This document shows, in pieces, positions 49,937-64,000 of a stretch of DNA of 64,000 nt. This DNA comes from Sphingobacteriales bacterium (GTDB taxonomy: Bacteria > Bacteroidota > Bacteroidia > Sphingobacteriales > Sphingobacteriaceae). The stretch lies in contig JAATFQ010000172.1 of NCBI GenBank assembly GCA_015655115.1, positions 1 to 64,000 of the forward strand, in the 5' to 3' direction. Position 1 is the stretch's first letter, and each line of letters opens with the position of its first letter. A program made the position numbers and the translations under genes. The notes under the pieces are model-generated. The model ran no database searches and was not told where the DNA came from. It worked only from the letters and a program-made list of their open reading frames with translations.

Positions 49937-50848
49937 TTATCCATGTCCTGCACCGCCATTTATTTTAAACACATGTAATACCGCCGGAAACAAGGCATCA
50001 ATACTTTCTTCCGCACCCTTCACAGATCCGGGAAGAGTGATGACAAGCGTGTTTTGTATGAAGCCCGCCACACCCCTGGAAAGCATCGCATAAGGCATGC
50101 GCTCTTGCCCGTATGCTCTTACATTTTCCATAATCCCGGGAATCTCTCTGTCTAGCAGTGGAGATATGGCTTCTGGCGTAACATCTCTTGGAGATACACC
50201 TGTGCCTCCGGTAAAGATCAGGAGATCAAAATTTTGTGCAGTCAGTTCGAGTACTTTTTCCTGGATCCTGGTAAAATCATCCGGAATGACAGCATAATGG
50301 TTGGTCTCCTGCTTAAACTGTTCCAGCTTCCGGATAATAGCTTTCCCGGAACCATCCTCTTTCTGACCTGCGCTGATGCTGTCGGAGCAAACAACCACAG
50401 CGCATTTGAGCACCAGGCCTTCAGTTATCAGGTTCTGGCTTTTACCACCAGATTTATGGTCCAGCCGGATATTTTCTATTTCTACTTTTTTATCTATAGG
50501 CTTTAACATATCGTAAAGAGTGAGTGCTGTTACCGCAGCGCCATGCATTGCTTCAACCTCAACCCCTGTCTTATAGATGGTATGTACCTCTACCCGGATG
50601 ATGATATGACAGCCTTCAATTACGTGGGTAATTGAAGTATATTCTATTGGAAGAGGATGACAATCGGGAATGACATCACTTGTTTTTTTGACAGCGAACA
50701 AGCCTGCGGCTCTGGAAAATTCGAAGACATCGCCTTTGGGTACAGTCTTTTGAACTATCGCATCTACAGTTTCCTGACTGGAGACTTTTACCGTGGCAAT
50801 AGCCACGGCTTTGCGCAATGTGTTTGACTTATGTGTGATGTTGACCAT
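49937..50848 (-). CDS. moaCB: Bifunctional MoaC-MoaB molybdopterin biosynthesis protein
   Basis: A 303-aa fusion. Residues about 1-150 are MoaC ([56 protein letters not shown]), which with MoaA forms cyclic pyranopterin monophosphate. Residues about 152-303 are a MoaB/MogA-type adenylyltransferase ([45 protein letters not shown]), which adenylates molybdopterin. The fusion joins two non-adjacent pathway steps. It overlaps the moaE stop by one base and is last in the operon. Confidence 0.95.
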
Positions 50849-51291
50849 TATTTATTCTCCTTCCACTGGTGTGATTCATTGGTTAAAATCTCTTTACCCC
50901 ATATTGGTAACTCTGCTTTAATGCGTTCAACCAGTTCACCGCAGGCATCCATGGCAGCTTTACGATGTGCCGAAGAGGTAAAAACAAACAGACATATCTC
51001 ACCGGCAGCTACTAAACCCAGGCTGTGATATACATGGATACAGGTTAACCTATATTTTTTAAAAACATCCTCCCTGATCTCATCCATCTTCAGTAAAGCC
51101 ATTTCTTCATAAGCAGTATAGTTAATCCCTGTTACCTGCGCATCGCCGAGTTGATCTGCCCGTACTTGCCCCAGGAAGATGCTGTGGGCACCAATGGCCG
51201 TATTTGCCTGATGCTTCTGTATACTGTCAGCGATAAAATGTGCAGGAATGGCACCAGGGGAAAATATATTTTTCAACTTCTTTTCTTTCAT
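50848..51291 (-). CDS. moaE: Molybdopterin synthase large subunit
   Basis: A 147-aa MoaE protein: the active-site region [24 protein letters not shown] has been partly recast, with VRAD in place of the common VRxx[33 protein letters not shown] and PIWGKEIL carry the conserved Lys. With MoaD it adds the dithiolene sulfurs to the pterin. It is in the middle of the Moco operon, 6 bp after moeB. Confidence 0.95.
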
Positions 51292-51297
51292 CCTGAA

Positions 51298-52428
51298 TTA
51301 TGGGTTGTTAATGTAGATGAAGCTATCATTATTTTGAATTATACCTCCCTTAAGTGTATAAAATCGTTTATCGGGATAACTTTCCAACAATAATTCTCCG
51401 GCAATTACACTTCTGATTCCAGACTGGCAGAAGAGCACAACCTGATCGCTATCAATTAAAGGGATTTCTTCTCTCAACTCTGATAAGGGTATGCTGATGT
51501 GCTTAAATGCTGTAACCTCAGGCAATTCCCCGTACTCACGGACATCAATAATGGTGTAGCGCTCATCACCCAGAATTGTATTGAATTTTGTCAGGGAGAT
51601 TTCTTTCAAACCTTCATCTGCGGGCTTGATACCACAGAACCAATTGTAGTCCATGCTGAGAAATGCCGGCAGATCTGCCGGCAGCGAGCTGCCTGTCTGA
51701 TCTGCCTTCAGATTAATCTGATAAGTATGGTGGGTATATAAATTATAAATCAGCAGCCGGTTAATCAGTGGAGTTCCTATTCCTGTAATCAGCTTAATTG
51801 CTTCAGCAGCCTGCATTGTTCCAATTATGCCCGGCAATACCCCCAATACGCCGGCTTCGGCGCAGTTTAATACTTCTCCTGGTTTTGGTGCTGTTGGAAA
51901 AACATCCCTGTAGTTGACTTTAGCACCTGTGGAATCTGGCACATTAAAAACAGACACCTGGCCTTCGCTGACAGATAGGGCACCATATATCAAAGGTTTA
52001 TTCAATAAGGCGCAGGCATCATTAATCATGTACCGGGTAGGGAAGTTATCTGAACCATCAATAACGATGTCAAATTTGCCGATAATAGCAACTGCATTTT
52101 GATTACTGAGCTGCAGCTGGTAAGGAATAACAGTGATTCCGGGGTTAAATTGCTGCAGACGTGCAGCTGCACAGGCTGCTTTTGGCAATCCGATATCTGT
52201 CATGGTATATAAAATCTGCCTGTGCAAATTACTCAGCTCTACCACATCGTGATCTACTACTCCTAAGGTCCCTATCCCTGCCGCGGCCAGGTATTGCAGT
52301 ATGGGACAGCCAAGGCCTCCGGCACCTATAACCAATACTTTTGCAGTGGAAAGTTTACACTGTCCTCCTGTGCCAAGTTCTTTCAGCAAAATTTGCCGCT
52401 GATATCTTGCTGTATCTATGTTGTCCAT
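51298..52428 (-). CDS. moeB: MoeB/ThiF-type adenylyltransferase with C-terminal rhodanese domain
   Basis: A 376-aa enzyme that adenylates the C-terminal Gly of MoaD. The E1-like domain (about 1-235) has the nucleotide motif VIGAGGLGCPILQYLAAAG, DGSDNFPTRYMINDAC and EVLNCAEAGVLG. A C-terminal rhodanese domain (about 275-370) has VVLFCQSGIRS with the sulfur-carrying Cys. This MOCS3-like architecture could supply sulfur as well as activation. No CxxC zinc pairs typical of E. coli MoeB were noticed in the E1 domain. It starts 1 bp after moaD ends. Confidence 0.94.
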   Translation of the reverse strand: MDNIDTARYQRQILLKELGTGGQCKLSTAKVLVIGAGGLGCPILQYLAAAGIGTLGVVDHDVVELSNLHRQILYTMTDIGLPKAACAAARLQQFNPGITVIPYQLQLSNQNAVAIIGKFDIVIDGSDNFPTRYMINDACALLNKPLIYGALSVSEGQVSVFNVPDSTGAKVNYRDVFPTAPKPGEVLNCAEAGVLGVLPGIIGTMQAAEAIKLITGIGTPLINRLLIYNLYTHHTYQINLKADQTGSSLPADLPAFLSMDYNWFCGIKPADEGLKEISLTKFNTILGDERYTIIDVREYGELPEVTAFKHISIPLSELREEIPLIDSDQVVLFCQSGIRSVIAGELLLESYPDKRFYTLKGGIIQNNDSFIYINNP

Positions 52429-52429
52429 A

Positions 52430-52663
52430 TTATCCTCCTGAAAATGGTGGCATTAAAGCTACCGTCATCCCTGTTGTTAAATGTGTGTTGCCCTGAATAA
52501 TTTCCAGATCTACAGCAACCTGGTAGTCAGCGTGTTTTAAAGAGGGATATTTTGCTAAAAGATATGAAAAAACGGCATCAGTATCTGCCACATCATACAA
52601 ATCCAGATGTGTTTCACCAATGAGTTCCGTTAATTGTCCGAATAATAAGATCTGTACTTTCAA
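52430..52663 (-). CDS. moaD: Molybdopterin synthase sulfur carrier subunit
   Basis: A 77-aa ubiquitin-fold protein ending in the obligatory Gly-Gly (LMPPFSGG), which is adenylated by MoeB and thiocarboxylated. The start MKVQILLFGQLTELIG is family-typical. It lies between moeA and moeB in the operon. Confidence 0.95.
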   Translation of the reverse strand: MKVQILLFGQLTELIGETHLDLYDVADTDAVFSYLLAKYPSLKHADYQVAVDLEIIQGNTHLTTGMTVALMPPFSGG

Positions 52664-52698
52664 TTTGTTATCTATTGAGCGCTTTATAGCCTGGTTTG

Positions 52699-53907
52699 TT
52701 AATCAGGAAGAAGACAAACTTTCACTGATGTCCCTGCATGGAATACCGTCTGTCCTTCTTCCAGTTCTATCATACAATTTGCTTCTGCAAAAGAACTCAT
52801 TCTGAAAGATTCCTGTGCATGAAGAGGTGTAACTTTTCCATCATTAAAGCATGCTTTTAAAAAATGAGTTAATCCTGCTGCCTTGAAACAATCGTGCGTT
52901 AATGTTGCATCAATAACCTTTACCCTTCCCGTTGAATTTTCATTGCTAATGGAAATATCATTAAAATTCATCATTATTTCTAATGCTGGCAGCACATATT
53001 GGTAAAAGCAGCTCAGTACTGAAGATGGATTGCCGGGAAGGCCGAAAATCACTTTCTTGCCCTTTTTGCCAAAGTATAGCGGTTTACCAGGCTTCTGTTT
53101 CACCTTGTGAAATATCTGCCGGATAGCGAGCTGCTCTGCCGCAGAAACAACAAAATCATAATCACCCACACTGACACCCCCGGTCAGCAATACCAGATCG
53201 TTAGCTTTCAGTGCCTCCTGTAAAACACTAATCAGCTCTTCCAAGACATCATCAGCAGTGTAAAAATTAATTTGTGTGACTTGTGCCTGTTCCAGTGCGG
53301 CAGTTAAGGAATAAGAATTAGATTCATATACCTGGCCAAATGCCAGTGCTTTGCCCGGTTGCTGCAATTCCCTGCCAGTGACAATGATGCCTACCGAAGG
53401 CCTGCGGTAAACGGGGACATCAGTGATGCCGATCCCTGCGAGAAAACCTATTGCCGCAGGCCTTAGTTTACTACCTTTCGCCATCGCCAGTCCACCGCTT
53501 TTGACCTCTGCTCCTTTATTACGCACATTAAGCCCTATTTTTAAATCAGGATCAACAATGGTCAGCATGCCTTTATTCAGTACTACCTTTTCCTGCATTA
53601 CTACAGTGTCGGCACCTGCGGGCAAGGGGGCACCTGTGAAAATGCGCGCAGCCTCAAATGGCGATAATGTAAATCCCTTTTCTGCACCGGCCCGCATTTC
53701 TCCATTCACGGTTAAAATGGACTGACGATCTGCATATCTGATCGCATAACCGTCCATAGACGATTGCTGAAAGGCCGGAATGTCAATTTCAGCATACAGA
53801 TCGGCTCCTAAGATATGCCCGGCAGCCACAGACAACTGGACGATATGAATACCAAGGGGTGCAATGTGCGCTTTGATATGTGATCTGGCTTCTTCTACTG
53901 AAATCAT
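52699..53907 (-). CDS. moeA: Molybdopterin molybdenumtransferase
   Basis: A 402-aa MoeA that inserts molybdate into adenylylated molybdopterin. Motifs: AEIDIPAFQQSSMDGYAIRY, FTGAPLPAGADTVVMQE, VRNKGAEVKSGG, LTGGVSVGDYDFV and IFGLPGNPSSVLSCFYQYV. All four domains appear to be present and length is normal. It lies 20 bp after moaA. Confidence 0.96.
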   Translation of the reverse strand: MISVEEARSHIKAHIAPLGIHIVQLSVAAGHILGADLYAEIDIPAFQQSSMDGYAIRYADRQSILTVNGEMRAGAEKGFTLSPFEAARIFTGAPLPAGADTVVMQEKVVLNKGMLTIVDPDLKIGLNVRNKGAEVKSGGLAMAKGSKLRPAAIGFLAGIGITDVPVYRRPSVGIIVTGRELQQPGKALAFGQVYESNSYSLTAALEQAQVTQINFYTADDVLEELISVLQEALKANDLVLLTGGVSVGDYDFVVSAAEQLAIRQIFHKVKQKPGKPLYFGKKGKKVIFGLPGNPSSVLSCFYQYVLPALEIMMNFNDISISNENSTGRVKVIDATLTHDCFKAAGLTHFLKACFNDGKVTPLHAQESFRMSSFAEANCMIELEEGQTVFHAGTSVKVCLLPD

Positions 53908-53927
53908 ATTAAAAATTGAAATAGATA

Positions 53928-54908
53928 TTAACCACCAATAGTGATCATACTTCTGTTATGAATGGTGCTAGCATCGATATGCTCAAATAAACCAGAAAAT
54001 TGTCCCCCCAAGGCTTTCGCTTTGTCGCCAATACATTGATGAATTAAAGGCAATACGTCCTCTCCATTTCTTAGTGGCCCTAATAAATCTGTTTCAGACT
54101 CAGAGAAAAGACAATTTTTCAACTTCCCGTCTGCTGTTAACCGCATACGGTTACAGGTAGAGCAAAAAGGGGCACTCATAGTACTGATGATAGCAAAAGA
54201 GCCCACATGACCCGCTATCTGATAATGTTTAGCTGTATCATTTAAGCCTCCCTGCAGGGGTAAATACTCATACCGGGAAGCCACCAGGGTCAGGATTTCT
54301 TCGAGCGATACCACCTGGTTGCTGGTCCACCGGTTGCCGGAAAAAGGCATAAACTCTATAAACCTCACTTCAAGAGGAGAGTCTTTTGTCCATGCTATAA
54401 AGTCAACAATCTCCATATCATTTAATCCTTTCATCACCACTACATTGATCTTTACCGTGATATTATGCTGCAACAGGAGGTCAACATTTGCCTTCACCTG
54501 CTTAAAGATATCCCTGCGGGTAATGGTATGGAATTTATCGGCAATTAAAGTATCCAGACTAATGTTGATACTTTTTATTTTTGCCTGTAGTAAAACACTT
54601 ATAAAATCATGTACCCTGGCCCCATTTGTGGTCAGCGATAGTTCTACAGGAAGTTTAGCGAGTGACAGGATAATCTGTGCGGCGTCTTTGCGTACCAGCG
54701 GTTCACCACCGGTAAGTTTGATTTTAGTTACGCCTTCCGTCACAAATGTTTTCGCGAGCGACTCAATTTCTGAGGGCTGCATTAATTTAAAGGCTTGGGT
54801 AAATTCATGATCTTCCTCTGGCATACAATAAAAACAGCGCAGGTTACAGTTATCTGTAAGTGATATACGCAGGTAGTTATGTATACGATTGAAAGAATCT
54901 CTTATCAT
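53928..54908 (-). CDS. moaA: GTP 3',8-cyclase (radical SAM)
   Basis: A 326-aa MoaA that catalyses the first step of Moco synthesis. N-terminal radical-SAM cluster motif CNLRCFYC, C-terminal second Fe-S cluster APFCSTCNRMRLTADGKLKNCLF in two parts (CSTC and the later Cys), KLTGGEPLVRKD for SAM binding, and a C-terminal Gly-Gly that is functionally important in known MoaA. It is the first intact gene of the operon; the decayed nucleotidyltransferase lies just upstream. Confidence 0.97.
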   Translation of the reverse strand: MIRDSFNRIHNYLRISLTDNCNLRCFYCMPEEDHEFTQAFKLMQPSEIESLAKTFVTEGVTKIKLTGGEPLVRKDAAQIILSLAKLPVELSLTTNGARVHDFISVLLQAKIKSINISLDTLIADKFHTITRRDIFKQVKANVDLLLQHNITVKINVVVMKGLNDMEIVDFIAWTKDSPLEVRFIEFMPFSGNRWTSNQVVSLEEILTLVASRYEYLPLQGGLNDTAKHYQIAGHVGSFAIISTMSAPFCSTCNRMRLTADGKLKNCLFSESETDLLGPLRNGEDVLPLIHQCIGDKAKALGGQFSGLFEHIDASTIHNRSMITIGG

Positions 54909-57792: not shown

Positions 57793-60700
57793 ATGAATAC
57801 TTTCCTAAAATTTTATTTGGTACTTCTTGTTACAGGAATTATTTGCCCTGCCTATACCTCAGCGATAACGGTAAAGGAACCACAGCATTTTTATTTTCAG
57901 CAACTCGACAATAGGAACGGACTGTCAAACAGCGCTGTAAATGCCGTACTTCAGGATAATGAAGATCTGGTATGGATAGGAACATGGGATGGGTTAAACA
58001 TGTTTGATGGCACTGATTTCAGGGTGTTTAATTACAATACACAAAGCCATCAGGGTAACATTGGCAATAATGTAATTCAGGATATCAAAGCAGATGGAAA
58101 AGGGAATATATGGCTCAGCACTATTGGCGGGATCACCAGATTTGAGAAATCGAGCGGCAAATTTTATAACTATTTTTATAATATCAGTACCAGGAAGAGC
58201 ATCATAGAGAAAGAATATGAGCTATTGATAGATGCGAAGGGGCAAGTATTCTGCTACAGCAAGACAAACGGGCTTAGTTCTTTTGATGCTTCGGCAAACG
58301 TATTTAAGAGCATTGACATTCCTACCTTAGGCAAGGATATTAAGGATAGGAAGATTATCAAAATTGAATGTTCTGCAAGTGGTCTCATCTGGATTTTGAA
58401 GGAAAATGGGGAGTTGCTGACCTGTAAATCGACCTCTAAAGGCTTGTCCCTAATCAGGTCTATTCGTAATGCCAGTAAAACCAGTAATTTCTTTCTTGTA
58501 AATAACCAGGTATTCATAACCAGCACTACGCATGGGCTGGCCAGCATAGAGCCGAATGGAGAATTGAAACCAATCAAGGGTATTTTCAATGGTATTAAAG
58601 CTATTGATTATTATCAGTCTAACTATGTTATTGCATGGGAGAGCCAGGGTATTGCTACCTACAACAAAGATTTTGTACCCAGCCTGTTTATGCAGGAAGA
58701 AGTAAAAAAGCTTTCGGGCATTAAAGTTACGGCTATTACACCAGCAAAGAACCATGTTTTATGGCTGGGAACAGACGGAAACGGGCTGATTAAGATCTAT
58801 CCGAAAATAAATTCCTTTGCACTTGTAAACAAAGCCGTAAACTATGACCTGAACAAACCCGTACGCGCCTTTTGCAGTGTGGACAATAATTTATGGATAG
58901 CGACAAAGGGACATGGTATACTGATACTTGATGCAGCTTTACCCCCAGGTCCGGAGGTTAAAGTGAGTACAGTGCTCAATACCACAAATGGGCTGAGCAA
59001 CAATTCTGTTTTTGCGCTAAAGAGAGGGTTGGACCTGCATATATATATTGGTACCGACGGAGAAGGTATTGATGTTTACGACCTCAAAACAAAAAAGATT
59101 ATTAAATGGGCCGACATAAGAGGTATACAGGCATTGCCTACTTTTGGTTCTGTATATGCGATAATGCAGGATAGAGACAGCACCATATGGCTTGGGACAA
59201 GTGGCAGCGGACTTATTCATCTGAGGTTAAAAAAAGAGGGAACAGGGCTTTTTGTGTCATCTTTCAAACAATACTTATCTGCTGCAAAATCGGGGCCTGC
59301 CAATGACATTATCTATGCCCTCGCAGACGGTGGTGATGGCAGGTTATGGATAGCCTGCAGGTATGGAGGTTTGAGTGTGATGAACAAAAAAACAGGGCTT
59401 TTCAAAACTTTTAAAGCTTTTACCTACCCCAATAGCTTGTCAAATAATGACGTTCTCTCCCTTTACCTTGATCATCAGCTGAAACTTTGGATTGGTACCA
59501 GCTATGGTTTGAATGTACTCGATTATAAGGAGTCGGCCAAAGCACAACCTGCTTTTAAAAAATATACTATGGCTGATGGTTTGCCCAATAATACTATTCA
59601 TGCGATAGAGATGGCTAATAGCGGGGCCATCTGGGTAAGTACCAATAAAGGGTTGGCCCGATTGAATCCGGCTACAAATGCCATTGCAAGTTTCAGGGAA
59701 AGCGACGGGTTGCAAAGCAATGAGTTTAGTGACGGCGCGGCATGGAAATCACCTTTAGGATATATCTATTTTGGGGGAATATATGGCTATAATTATTTCC
59801 TTCCCGAAAAATTAACAGAAAATACTATTCAGCCGAACCTGCTGGTTTCAAGGCTACAGATTGGGGGGCAATCCATCGGTGAAAACAAGATACAGGTACT
59901 AACAGGGACACAAGGGGCCATTCCTGAATATGTTGTGGAACGCAAAAGTAATTTTTTTCAGATCTCACTGAAGTCTATGAGTTTTTTAAACCCCTTGAAA
60001 AACGAGTTCGCTTATAAACTGGAAGGCTTAGATAAAGACTGGAACTACTCGGGTGCTATCGGGAATATAAACTATAATAACATACCCACGGGAAACTACA
60101 TTTTACAGGTAAGATGGTCTAATGGAGAAGGCGTATGGACAGATAGCATCAGTGTTATGAAAATTCACGTAGACCAGTTTTTCTGGCTTACCTACCCTGC
60201 CCTATTGTTGTATATGCTGGTTGTTATTGCCTCTGCCTATGCATTTCATGTGTACCGGAAGAATAAGATACAGATGAAGTATCAGCTGGAAATGGAATCC
60301 CTGCTGCGTGAAAAGGATAAAGAAGAACATCAGCAACGGCTTAATTTTTTCACTAACATCGCTCATGAGATACAAACTCCATTAACATTGATTATGGGTA
60401 CTGTAGAGCATTTTTTACAGAAAAGAAAAGCGGAACTGTCTAAAAATAAAGAAAACAGCTACTTCTTGTCGATAGTACATCAGCATACTGCCAGGCTAAG
60501 CTACCTGGTGCAGCAACTGCTGGAATTCAGAAAAGCAGAGGCTGGTTATTTAAAGAGAAACGATGATTACCTGGATTTAAGTAAAATGCTCGACAGTCTT
60601 TCTGCCTTATTCCAATCAGGCACCGAGTACAGCAACAGGCCCTTCATCCGCAAGGTGCAGGAAGGTATAGCCGGGTATATTGATAAAGATAAGCTGGAGA

Positions 60701-61938
60701 AAATCATGTTCAATCTGCTGTCCAATGCCTTCAAACATTCAGGGAATGGAGATACGATAGAATTTGTAGTTAACTATGATAAAGAAACCCAAATACTGAC
60801 CATTCGCGTCTCCAATTCGGGATGTACCCTGGAGGCCGAAGATATCAGCCAGATTTTCAACAAGTTTTATACCGTTAATGACCAGTCGCAGGAGAAATTC
60901 AGTACAGGCATAGGACTCGCATTTACCAAAGAACTGGTGAACCTGATGGGCGCTGAAATATCAGTTGAACTGGCGGAGGGCTGGATCCATTTCACCATAT
61001 CCATAGTACTGGAAACAAAAACTGCGGAAGGCAAAAAAGAGGAAGTGATTACTTCTGCACCTTCTTATTTATATGAATCGCTGGTTAAGCATTATGAAAA
61101 ACCAGAACAGTTATCTGCCGGCGAAGAAAACAAAAATAGCCTCATCGAGGAATTACAGCAGCACAATGCGCAAAGTATCCTGCTGGTAGAAGACGATCCG
61201 GAACTTCGTTTTATGATCAGGAATGTTTTAAAAGACCAGTATATCGTATACGAATCCAGTAATGCGATAGAGGCGCTTGTTTTTTTGCGTAAAACTGCTC
61301 CCAGTCTGATCATCAGTGATGTGATGATGCCGGGAATGAACGGACTGGATTTCTGCCGGGAGGTAAAACAGACTCCAGCTACTGCACAGATCCCATTTAT
61401 AATTCTTTCTGCAAAAAGTACGGAAGAAAATAAAACCGAGGGATATGAGGTTGGTGCTGATGCGTATATTCCAAAACCTTTTCATATTAATTATTTACAG
61501 GTGAGGATACGCAAATTGCTGGACTACCAGGCAAAAATGCAGAACCTGATCAAAGACCAGCATATCACTAACCAATTCATGGATACTGATATTCCTGATG
61601 TCGATAAACATTTCCTGGAATCCCTGCTAAAAGTTATTGAACAGAATCTGAATGAGCCGGAATTAAATGCAGCAATGCTGGAAGATGCCCTTTCCATTAG
61701 TAAAATGCAGTTGTACAGGAAGCTAAAGTCGCTCACGGGCATGACACCCGCTGAGTTTATTAAAAGAATACGGCTGAAGCATGCTGCTGATATGCTGCTC
61801 AGCTCTCAGTATACAGTATCCGAGATTTTTTACCGTACGGGTTTTAATAATAAATCTTATTTTTTCAGAGAGTTTAAGAAAATATATCAATGTGCCCCGA
61901 GTGATTACCGCCAGCGGCAATATGAGAGCAATTCATAA
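57793..61938 (+). CDS. Hybrid two-component system regulator (HTCS)
   Basis: A 1381-aa single-protein sensor and transcription factor of the kind that controls polysaccharide utilisation loci. Order: signal peptide, about 14 two-component propeller repeats (for example NEDLVWIGTWDGLNMFD and GRLWIACRYGGLSVMN), Y_Y_Y domain (about 705-785), membrane helix (about 796-815), HisKA (FFTNIAHEIQTPLTLIM, His858), HATPase, receiver (VEDDPELRFMIRN, Asp1176 in ISDVMMPGMNG) and AraC-type HTH (about 1275-1378). The H-box reads HEIQTPL instead of HEIRTPL. It is followed by susC on the same strand, whose promoter carries a direct repeat. Confidence 0.96.
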   Translation: MNTFLKFYLVLLVTGIICPAYTSAITVKEPQHFYFQQLDNRNGLSNSAVNAVLQDNEDLVWIGTWDGLNMFDGTDFRVFNYNTQSHQGNIGNNVIQDIKADGKGNIWLSTIGGITRFEKSSGKFYNYFYNISTRKSIIEKEYELLIDAKGQVFCYSKTNGLSSFDASANVFKSIDIPTLGKDIKDRKIIKIECSASGLIWILKENGELLTCKSTSKGLSLIRSIRNASKTSNFFLVNNQVFITSTTHGLASIEPNGELKPIKGIFNGIKAIDYYQSNYVIAWESQGIATYNKDFVPSLFMQEEVKKLSGIKVTAITPAKNHVLWLGTDGNGLIKIYPKINSFALVNKAVNYDLNKPVRAFCSVDNNLWIATKGHGILILDAALPPGPEVKVSTVLNTTNGLSNNSVFALKRGLDLHIYIGTDGEGIDVYDLKTKKIIKWADIRGIQALPTFGSVYAIMQDRDSTIWLGTSGSGLIHLRLKKEGTGLFVSSFKQYLSAAKSGPANDIIYALADGGDGRLWIACRYGGLSVMNKKTGLFKTFKAFTYPNSLSNNDVLSLYLDHQLKLWIGTSYGLNVLDYKESAKAQPAFKKYTMADGLPNNTIHAIEMANSGAIWVSTNKGLARLNPATNAIASFRESDGLQSNEFSDGAAWKSPLGYIYFGGIYGYNYFLPEKLTENTIQPNLLVSRLQIGGQSIGENKIQVLTGTQGAIPEYVVERKSNFFQISLKSMSFLNPLKNEFAYKLEGLDKDWNYSGAIGNINYNNIPTGNYILQVRWSNGEGVWTDSISVMKIHVDQFFWLTYPALLLYMLVVIASAYAFHVYRKNKIQMKYQLEMESLLREKDKEEHQQRLNFFTNIAHEIQTPLTLIMGTVEHFLQKRKAELSKNKENSYFLSIVHQHTARLSYLVQQLLEFRKAEAGYLKRNDDYLDLSKMLDSLSALFQSGTEYSNRPFIRKVQEGIAGYIDKDKLEKIMFNLLSNAFKHSGNGDTIEFVVNYDKETQILTIRVSNSGCTLEAEDISQIFNKFYTVNDQSQEKFSTGIGLAFTKELVNLMGAEISVELAEGWIHFTISIVLETKTAEGKKEEVITSAPSYLYESLVKHYEKPEQLSAGEENKNSLIEELQQHNAQSILLVEDDPELRFMIRNVLKDQYIVYESSNAIEALVFLRKTAPSLIISDVMMPGMNGLDFCREVKQTPATAQIPFIILSAKSTEENKTEGYEVGADAYIPKPFHINYLQVRIRKLLDYQAKMQNLIKDQHITNQFMDTDIPDVDKHFLESLLKVIEQNLNEPELNAAMLEDALSISKMQLYRKLKSLTGMTPAEFIKRIRLKHAADMLLSSQYTVSEIFYRTGFNNKSYFFREFKKIYQCAPSDYRQRQYESNS

Positions 61939-61971
61939 AAAACACCATTTTAAGCTATATTTCTAGCTATT

Positions 61972-62010
61972 TTGTAACTATAGTGAACCAAATTGTAACT
62001 ATAGTGCACC
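61972..62010 (+). promoter_or_regulatory. Two 18-bp direct repeats at 21-bp spacing: predicted HTCS operator
   Basis: TTGTAACTATAGTGAACC (61972-61989) and TTGTAACTATAGTGCACC (61993-62010) differ at one base and start 21 bp apart, two turns of the helix. They end 20 bp before the -7 box of susC. Direct repeats on one face of DNA are typical of AraC-type activators, and the HTCS gene ends just upstream. Confidence 0.75.
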
Positions 62011-62030
62011 CCCCGAAATGCCCTCTTCCC

Positions 62031-62038
62031 TACTTTTG
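62031..62038 (+). promoter_or_regulatory. -7 box of susC
   Basis: TACTTTTG matches TAnnTTTG, 20 bp before the susC ATG. The -33 region falls at the edge of the direct repeats, suggesting that the bound activator replaces a weak -33 contact. An AACCAAATACAA leader motif (62043-62054) follows. Confidence 0.65.
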
Positions 62039-62058
62039 CTTTAACCAAATACAATCAA

Positions 62059-64000
62059 ATGAAAAGAAAATTATCTTTCAGAACGGGCCTGGTATTTATA
62101 CTTTTAGTACTTACATACTTTAACAGTATGGCCCAGGAAAAATTATCAGGAAAAGTAAGCGATGAGAATAACATGCCTTTACCGGGGGTTATTGTTCAGC
62201 AGCTGAATACCCAAAACCGGACCGCTACCAATACAAACGGACAGTATACACTAACATTGATAGCAGGTGGCGCAAAATCGCTGGTATTTTCTTATATCGG
62301 TTATCAATCCGTCACCCTTCCTATTAATGGCACAGCGGCAATCAATACCAGCCTGAAGCCTGCGACATCGAATTTAAATGAAGTAGTGGTGGTTGGTTAC
62401 ACCTCTCAGCGCAAAGCCTCTATCTCTGGTGCCATTGGTACCGTAAATATGGAAAGTGCAGAAAAGCGCCGGGTAGCCGATGTTGCACAGGTATTGCAGG
62501 GACAGGTTGCCGGCGTACAGGTGACACAAAGTACCGGCGCACCAGGTGACCCGATTAATATCCGTATCCGGGGTGAAGGTACGATAGGAAATAATAACCC
62601 ACTCTACATAGTGGATGGCACGCCTACTGAGGACATCACCTTTTTAAATCCTTCAGACATCAAAACCTTTAGTGTGCTTAAGGATGCCGCCTCTGCTGCC
62701 GTATACGGTTCCCGGGCCGCCGGCGGTGTGGTTATTATTACCACAAAAAGTGGAGTAACCGGAAAGTCTAACCTGGAATTCAGCTATTACACAGGTATAC
62801 AAAAGGCAACTAATTTACCAACGATGCTCAATACTACCCAATATCTGGATGTAACTGAGCAGGCATGGAACAATGCGGGCTATAGCGGCACAAACCCTTA
62901 CATTGCTGAAAAAGGCAGAACTGATCTCGCTAATACAGATTGGTTAAAAGAATTATTTGAAACCGGTATCTCGCAAAATGCACAATTTTCGGCAAGCGGA
63001 GGTTCGGATAAAGTTCAGTATTTGCTTTCTGGTGGCTACTACAGCCAGGATGGAATTGTAAAATTTGACAATGATAAATATCAGCGTACCACTTTCAGGT
63101 CAAATATCAATGCCAATTTAACCGACAGGTTTAAAATTGGAACTAATCTGCAAATTTCCTATGCTAAACAAGATTGGTTATCTGGCAAGGGCGATGCACC
63201 CGGAATTATAAGGCATGCCTTTCTGAGACCACCAGTTCTTTCGGTTTACAAAGACCCTTCAGACCCTACTTACAGTGCGAGTGACCCTTTTACAGATTTA
63301 CCTTTTTACCAGAACAACAACTCCACTACTGGCTGGGACCAGAATTTTGAGAAATCATCGAACCCGGTGGCACTTGCTAATTTTGCGAACGATCAAAGAA
63401 GCTATTTCAGGACTTTTGGTAATATGTATGGTGAGTACGCTTTTTTAAAGGATAAATCTTTAAAGCTCAAAACAAGCGTAGGATTAGATCTGACCTTTAC
63501 GCATAACAAAGCCTTTATGCAAAACTTTGGAGACGATGATGGTGGGGGTGCTACGATAGATCAGGGTAAAGGCATGGGCCGTCAGAACAGACCTACGTCC
63601 TTAAGTGAAGCACGAGGTCAGCAAACAAACTACAACTGGACAAACACTTTAAATTACAGCAAAACATTTGATAAACATTCTATCAACGCACTGATAGGTT
63701 CAGAATTCATCAAACAATCCGCATCGGCCATTTCTGCTTCAAGAGCACGGTATGACTATACCACAGAAAGCTTTCAATATATCGATTTCGGCGGTACTAC
63801 TGCTGATTTATGGAACGGTGGTAATGCTTCAGAAAACTCACTGTTCTCTTTGTTTGGATCTGCTACTTATGTATATAATTCCCGTTATATGTTAACGGCT
63901 AACTTCAGGGCGGATGCTTCTTCCAGGTTCGGTGAAAACAACCAATGGGGATATTTCCCTTCCGTATCCGCAGGATGGACCATTTCGGAGGAAGAATTCA
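62059..64000 (+). CDS. SusC-family TonB-linked outer-membrane receptor, incomplete at window end
   Basis: At least 647 codons of a SusC-type transporter are visible. Signal peptide (cleaved after SMA), carboxypeptidase-D-regulatory-like domain (LSGKVSDENNMPLPGVIVQQL, VFSYIGYQSVTLPI), TonB box region NEVVVVGYTSQRK, and plug domain (VLQGQVAGVQVTQSTGAPGD, IRIRGEGTIGNNNPLYIVDG, VLKDAASAAVYGSRAAGGVV), then barrel strands. It imports oligosaccharide or another ligand across the outer membrane with a SusD lipoprotein expected just beyond the window. It lies 120 bp after the HTCS gene. No STN domain is present, so it is not obviously a sigma/anti-sigma signalling receptor. Confidence 0.97.
   Translation, partial: MKRKLSFRTGLVFILLVLTYFNSMAQEKLSGKVSDENNMPLPGVIVQQLNTQNRTATNTNGQYTLTLIAGGAKSLVFSYIGYQSVTLPINGTAAINTSLKPATSNLNEVVVVGYTSQRKASISGAIGTVNMESAEKRRVADVAQVLQGQVAGVQVTQSTGAPGDPINIRIRGEGTIGNNNPLYIVDGTPTEDITFLNPSDIKTFSVLKDAASAAVYGSRAAGGVVIITTKSGVTGKSNLEFSYYTGIQKATNLPTMLNTTQYLDVTEQAWNNAGYSGTNPYIAEKGRTDLANTDWLKELFETGISQNAQFSASGGSDKVQYLLSGGYYSQDGIVKFDNDKYQRTTFRSNINANLTDRFKIGTNLQISYAKQDWLSGKGDAPGIIRHAFLRPPVLSVYKDPSDPTYSASDPFTDLPFYQNNNSTTGWDQNFEKSSNPVALANFANDQRSYFRTFGNMYGEYAFLKDKSLKLKTSVGLDLTFTHNKAFMQNFGDDDGGGATIDQGKGMGRQNRPTSLSEARGQQTNYNWTNTLNYSKTFDKHSINALIGSEFIKQSASAISASRARYDYTTESFQYIDFGGTTADLWNGGNASENSLFSLFGSATYVYNSRYMLTANFRADASSRFGENNQWGYFPSVSAGWTISEEEF

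Follow-up and report, generated by a model that had tools for sequence, protein, structure and literature searches.

Introduction

The araI1-I2 site of Escherichia coli, an AraC class II site, consists of two direct half-sites of about 17 bp with a 21-bp period, and the proximal half-site lies next to the upstream element of the polymerase. AraC itself is a soluble, arabinose-binding protein with an AraC-type HTH. The system described here differs from it in its regulator, as HTCSs are membrane kinases that include a receiver domain, and in its Bacteroidota-type promoter. For the HTCSs of Bacteroides thetaiotaomicron, tandem direct-repeat sites averaging 21 bp were predicted in 16 of 36 cases, upstream of polysaccharide-utilization operons. 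The similarity of their motifs generally follows the similarity of the HTHs, and the binding of the two HTHs of one dimer to tandem sites was proposed for the Bacteroides HTCSs (Ravcheev et al. 2013, PMC3878776, available passages). In ChIP-seq experiments intact HTCSs bind their target loci; for BT1754 the top peak falls on the 3' part of the BT1754 gene itself, and loci repressed by BT0366 are among those to which BT0366 binds (PMC3404733, available passages). Response-regulator fragments of HTCSs bind susCD promoter DNA in EMSA (PMC11253607, available passages).

Here, a predicted operator of an HTCS was analysed in a window of 64,000 nucleotides, by which we mean the whole stretch of DNA from a bacterium of a Pedobacter-like genus. 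The site is like the predicted B. thetaiotaomicron operators in that direct orientation of the copies, a distance of about 21 bp, a susCD pair downstream with an adjacent HTCS gene and conservation across genomes were found, and it is assigned to the HTCS. Genus and motif are different. Compared with what the available passages of PMC3878776 describe, the site occurs once per genome under a strict pattern, keeps a fixed distance of 21-22 nt to the -7 box and has the stop codon of the regulator gene within a half-site at 13 of 30 loci. With BT1754 and BT0366 it shares a membrane HTCS that would bind its own locus, and the position of the BT1754 peak matches that of the predicted site. The available passages of PMC3404733 do not resolve a site to the base, and the single site found here differs from the additional loci of BT0366.

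The name Pedobacter does not occur in the main text of PMC3878776, and a literature search, with subscription journals mostly outside its coverage, turned up no publication that describes an HTCS operator in Pedobacter. The arrangement as such is already predicted for gut Bacteroides, and the locus is a further, well-conserved example of it. New are the motif and its occurrence in more than one family, as well as the constant spacing between site and -7 box and the regulator stop codon in the half-site. This provides a footprinted, base-level predicted operator with a rigid promoter geometry outside Bacteroides, a 39-bp tandem site followed after 21-22 nt by TAnnTTTG, and it makes tests of binding, spacing and cis-action simple to design.

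Results and discussion

The tandem repeat between the HTCS gene and susC

The HTCS gene (57793..61938, forward strand) codes for a protein of 1381 residues. It is followed after 120 bp, in the same direction, by the gene of a susC-like TonB-dependent transporter (62059..64000, forward strand), which runs beyond the window end and encodes 1028 residues on the contig. Another 2.8 kb of the contig lie beyond the window and contain the remainder of susC, followed by susD. Within the 120-bp gap, the upstream half-site, copy 1 (TTGTAACTATAGTGAACC, 61972-61989, forward strand), begins 33 bp past the end of the HTCS reading frame. The promoter-proximal half-site, copy 2 (TTGTAACTATAGTGCACC, 61993-62010, forward strand), is located approximately where a -33 element is expected. 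Together they make up a candidate operator of about 39 bp (61971..62010, forward strand). Downstream, TACTTTTG at 62031-62038 of the forward strand corresponds to the -7 box TAnnTTTG, the consensus of the Bacteroidota primary sigma factor (PMC7366714, available passages), and the ATG of susC at 62059 follows 20 bp after this box.

The preliminary description had reported two 18-bp copies with one base different, two helical turns apart and ending 20 bp before a consensus -7 box. This was borne out: the copies are identical at 17 of 18 positions, their starts are 21 bp apart, a period that was found without a preset value, and TACTTTTG comes after a further 20 bp once copy 2 has ended. The operator-to-box distances of 21-22 nt used below were counted from the end of the ...CAC motif at 62009 and not from the end of copy 2. 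When the 120-bp gap was simulated with a first-order Markov model (n=1000), the best 18-mer pair at periods 18-60 never reached 17 identities and reached 16 once. In the whole 64-kb window, this repeat was the sole 18-mer pair with at least 16 of 18 identities at periods 18-60.

The HTCS protein

In the 1381-residue protein a propeller sensor (Reg_prop), Y_Y_Y, HisKA, HATPase_c, a receiver (Response_reg) and an AraC-type HTH (HTH_18) were found together in a single chain, as in an HTCS. Its relatives in the PDB are 4a2l and 3v9f for the sensor and 12aw for the receiver-HTH part. Among five stretches compared, the HTH was the best conserved. Within the genus, the mean identity to the window HTCS was 83% for the HTH versus 56% for the sensor (n=29); the individual values in the Chitinophagales orthologs were 65-71% versus 45-47% (n=4).

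Most Bacteroides HTCSs have in the receiver an S/CHIP motif, which was reported to keep the HTH inactive, with S/C present in 84% and HIP in over 90% of the HTCSs (PMC11253607, available passages). In the window HTCS, residues 1198-1201 in the alpha3-beta4 loop of the receiver are AQIP. When the orthologs were inspected by eye, AQIP or ARIP was seen in 13 of 16 closer members of the genus and S/CHIP in 12 of 14 more distant ones. A protein need not have S/CHIP to count as an HTCS, and DNA binding may be regulated differently in the clade that bears AQIP.

Conservation of the predicted operator within the genus

The HTCS protein was searched against 145 genomes of the genus with a threshold of E <= 1e-200, and 33 were found. 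These comprised 30 intact orthologs with 53-100% identity (the window included), a broken ortholog in G080 and two genomes, G151 and G155, in which a paralog of about 40% identity was the best match; G012 has both the ortholog and the paralog. The site of P. cryoconitis (L040) has the same sequence as that of G088, and the two were counted once.

A block matching the 39-bp operator was present at all 30 intact ortholog loci, the window among them. Measured against the pair pattern, the best site per locus scored 14-18 of 18, versus 10-13 for sites in the wrong place or orientation. In the alignment of the 30 sites about 39 consecutive columns were highly conserved and both flanks were much lower. 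A few upstream columns were conserved as well, for example with 1.65 bits at -21, where many loci still have HTCS coding sequence. The approximately 20 bases between the block and the -7 box vary freely in sequence, and yet TAnnTTTG was found in 29 of the 30 loci, 17 times at a distance of 21 nt and 12 times at 22 nt; G173 was a near-miss. Beyond the -7 box (62035-62051 in the window, and in the orthologs), a sequence TTTGnnnTAACCAAATA / AATCAAATATAAATC looks well kept and is possibly an initiation or leader element; in this genome TTTGnnnTAACCAAATA gave 13 matches versus 8 for the control and was not clearly enriched.

At the one base that differs between the copies, the 35 operators compared showed A in 30, C in 3, G in 1 and T in 1 for box 1, and C in 24 and T in 11 for box 2, where A never occurred. 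This difference is not noise. The copies of the window are more alike (17/18) than those of the other 34 operators (10-16 of 18), which were found with a pattern that fixes the period at 21 and therefore agree in spacing by construction. A recent tandem duplication without function would leave just such a nearly perfect pair as that of the window. It would hardly account for a block that is present in orthologs down to 47% protein identity, that keeps its box-specific differences and whose spacer to the -7 box drifts, and slippage of this kind was rejected as having a negligible chance of being correct.

Each copy contains a palindromic core, and the two cores can pair in RNA. We therefore considered that the conserved element might be an RNA hairpin at the 3' end of the HTCS transcript or in the susC leader. 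The 120-nt gap of the window does fold with z = -2.6, a value equalled by 1 of 200 shuffled sequences, and structure prediction gives several closely related operators a stem that resembles it. However, RNAalifold returned no structure for the 35 operators, the more distant ones fold otherwise, the pairing palindrome is kept in both boxes in only 10 of 35, and a search for a terminator-like site found none. The hairpin was rejected on this evidence and is judged highly improbable. Likewise, a factor that binds a dyad should have preserved the palindromic core, which is kept in only 13 of 35 sequences of box 1 and 13 of 35 of box 2, and a dyad operator was rejected.

The operator starts no more than 62 nt from the HTCS stop codon in 27 of the 30 loci of the genus. 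In the 13 loci where the stop codon lies inside box 1, it is the TAG of CATAGTG in G014, and in the other 12 a TAA that belongs to TTTGTAAC or to a variant of it. Displaced operators were found in G091, G138 and G170 at 0.65, 2.9 and 1.7 kb from the HTCS gene, respectively. Two genes are located between HTCS and operator in G138 and one in G170, in both cases including a gene with a peptidase M19 domain. All three displaced sites are still followed, after 50-51 nt, by the start codon of a SusC-like gene, and the site thus tracks the promoter and not the 3' end of the HTCS gene. When the distance was measured in 28 loci, G138 and G170 being left out, the ATG of the first long ORF was found 49-54 nt after the site in 26. 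The exceptions were G042 with 62 nt and G079 with 11 nt, where the script chose an ATG within the spacer.

A separate observation was made in G080 (C17:26491-30565), where the HTCS ortholog is broken, with five internal stops and a match in two pieces; its operator and -7 box look intact.

Co-occurrence with the HTCS

The genomes were then screened with the strict pair pattern TATAGTGnAC-N11-TATAGTGnAC, allowing at most one mismatch, and with the backwards pattern as a control. The strict pattern was found in 21 of the 145 genomes of the genus, once in each, and the control pattern gave 1 match. All 21 were among the 31 genomes with an HTCS ortholog, intact or broken, and none of the 114 genomes of the genus without the ortholog had the pattern. 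The pattern could go together with the linked operon just as strictly as with the HTCS.

As an alternative, the operator might belong to a different regulator of the same operon, such as another AraC-type protein, a Crp-like protein or an ECF sigma factor. Candidates are encoded nearby: G026 has, at the far end of the locus, a 319-residue protein with a cNMP-binding domain and an AraC-type HTH, and in G105 a FecR/ECF-sigma pair lies past the far end. In the 19-kb stretch of G105, on the other hand, an AraC-type HTH was found in none of 11 scanned ORFs of at least 150 residues (12 listed). The lack of the strict operator in the 114 genomes without an HTCS ortholog also speaks against a different regulator, as do related sites that accompany a paralog subfamily with a similar HTH (see below). 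We rejected this explanation as very unlikely.

Sites outside the genus and at paralogs

A looser joint pattern was run on 400 genomes of the order, sampled from a larger group. It gave 26 matches versus 2 control matches; the window is not among them, its own spacer not fitting the joint pattern. The matches were in 24 Pedobacter genomes with the ortholog, in G239 beside an ortholog of 51% identity and in G151, which has a paralog of 41% identity. G239 is an independent test, as it was matched by a pattern made before G239 was seen.

Outside the genus, a sister motif was observed at five orthologs, namely G239 (51%) and four Chitinophagales loci (L041, L042, L045 and L097; 47-48%). It lies 73-877 nt after the HTCS match in the five loci (197-877 nt in the Chitinophagales), and TAnnTTT was found at 21 nt in 5 of 5. 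The sister motif of L045 is ATTGTAACCATAGTACAGTAAAATGTAACCATAGTGTAC. Against the strict pattern the Chitinophagales sites scored 13-15 of 18, and 12-13 was reached elsewhere in these loci of 16-24 kb, which makes ties or near-ties. The case for the Chitinophagales rests on the repeat itself, the common TAAAATG spacer and the promoter distance. A long ORF begins 47-48 nt after the site in L042 and L045. The first long ORF of L041 and that of L097, both susC-like, begin at 342 and 257 nt, respectively, and not at about 50.

The HTHs of the paralog subfamily are 56-65% identical to the window HTH, and two of the three genomes with such a paralog have a related site. In G151 the related operator is 29 kb away from the HTCS paralog and has a TAnnTTT at 21 nt. 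In G012 the site is located 63 nt after the paralog; it deviates from the pattern at 2 positions and lacks a correctly spaced TAnnTTT. The search for a related site in G155 found none. As a usable rule of thumb from few cases, this suggests that a common motif can be recognized for HTCSs once their HTHs reach an identity of about 60%.

Regulon and the 21-bp period at other HTCS loci

It had been expected in the preliminary description that the regulon could be predicted from the sequence of the repeat. This succeeded for one site, whereas the other matches in the genome were at or below control, with the count limited to an assembly that is about 81% complete. With up to 3 mismatches, the pair gave 4 matches in this genome (this site with 0 and three with 3 mismatches) versus 10 in the controls. 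A single 14-mer with up to 2 mismatches gave 46 matches versus 98 in the controls, and a match to one box alone is thus uninformative.

The other 17 HTCSs found in the genome of the window have HTHs that are 31-40% identical to that of the window HTCS. At their loci, strict repeats (at least 13/16, periods 10-60, 37 regions) had a period of 21 in 3 of 8 cases. When a -7 box was required, as present in 14 of 47 promoters, a period-21 repeat of at least 11/16 was seen in 2, and periods 22 and 23 in one each. For a diverse set of loci (L043-L101) the strict search did not single out one period: 16 came first with 8 repeats and 21 second with 7, two of which belong to the Chitinophagales orthologs of this HTCS. 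With the -7 box required (95 of 379 promoters), period 21 became the commonest of 46 periods. It then had 10 repeats versus a mean of 2.2 at a threshold of at least 10/16, 5 versus 0.44 at 11/16 and 2 versus 0.11 at 12/16, several of these repeats being weak or AT-rich. At other HTCS loci the period-21 rule thus shows up only modestly.

Proposed mode of action

We consider the repeat to be the operator of the adjacent HTCS, where the two AraC-type HTHs of a dimer would bind the tandem half-sites and activate susCD, and estimate the probability of this reading from the sequence comparisons at about 0.92. The signal would start with the periplasmic sensor, which may detect a glycan and lead to the phosphorylation of the HTCS. 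The two HTHs would then contact half-sites of the same orientation, two turns apart on one face of the DNA, such that the promoter-proximal half-site is occupied at about the -33 position, 20 bp before the -7 box. Most likely, the phosphorylated HTCS would recruit RNA polymerase with the primary sigma factor in a manner like AraC at class II sites, and the susC-susD operon would be switched on.

The preliminary description had called the repeat a textbook activator site of the HTCS encoded upstream. The assignment to the HTCS stands, with the footprint at 30 of 30 loci, the 21 of 21 strict matches, the five sister motifs and the sites of the paralogs, whereas the term activator was deduced from the geometry alone. 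TTTG was absent from the last 12 nt of the operator in all 35 sequences. The proximal half-site takes the place of TTTG, which fits activation without proving it. A TTTG near -33 is described in B. fragilis and was not identified in Flavobacterium johnsoniae (PMC7366714, available passages), and its absence here is for this reason weak evidence of activation. The position of the proximal half-site fits the overlap with the upstream element seen in AraC class II sites, although the promoter is a predicted one and this branch of the phylum may lack a -33 box altogether.

Why the operator lies at the end of the regulator gene might be explained by the membrane-tethered HTCS itself. Its co-translational insertion would hold the end of its own gene, and with it the operator, at the membrane, which would solve the target search and result in activation mostly in cis. 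If so, the stop codon within the half-site and the top ChIP peak of BT1754 would follow as consequences. The three displaced loci of the genus (0.65-2.9 kb) and the paralog-type site of G151 at 29 kb speak against such a coupling, and we regard it as unlikely.

Gene content of the operon

Downstream of the operator, G026 and G105 have the genes for a protein of about 830-880 residues, SusC, SusD, a member of the GH130 family, an MFS-like protein and a protein of about 579 residues, and G138 has those for SusC, SusD and GH130. The GH130 protein of G026 is nearest to the models of mannobiose phosphorylases, below the NCBIfam cut-offs. Our guess is that the substrate of the operon might be a beta-mannoside, a hint taken from the orthologous operons, as the contig of the window ends short of the GH130 region.

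The gene for the conserved protein of about 830-880 residues comes first in the operon in G026 (L187:253-2754), G105 (L188:16205-18850) and Ferruginibacter (L042:15061-17541). It has no Pfam match, and its identity to the G026 version is 84% in G105 and 67% in Ferruginibacter. Perhaps it is an undescribed glycan-active enzyme of the GH130 locus. The protein of about 579 residues (L187:9768-11507 and L188:7493-9229) is likewise without a Pfam match.

Elsewhere in the window, the minus strand carries a molybdenum-cofactor synthesis cluster at 49937-54908, with MoaC fused to a MoCF domain, MoaE, a ThiF family protein, MoeA and radical-SAM proteins with Mob_synth_C (MoaA-like).
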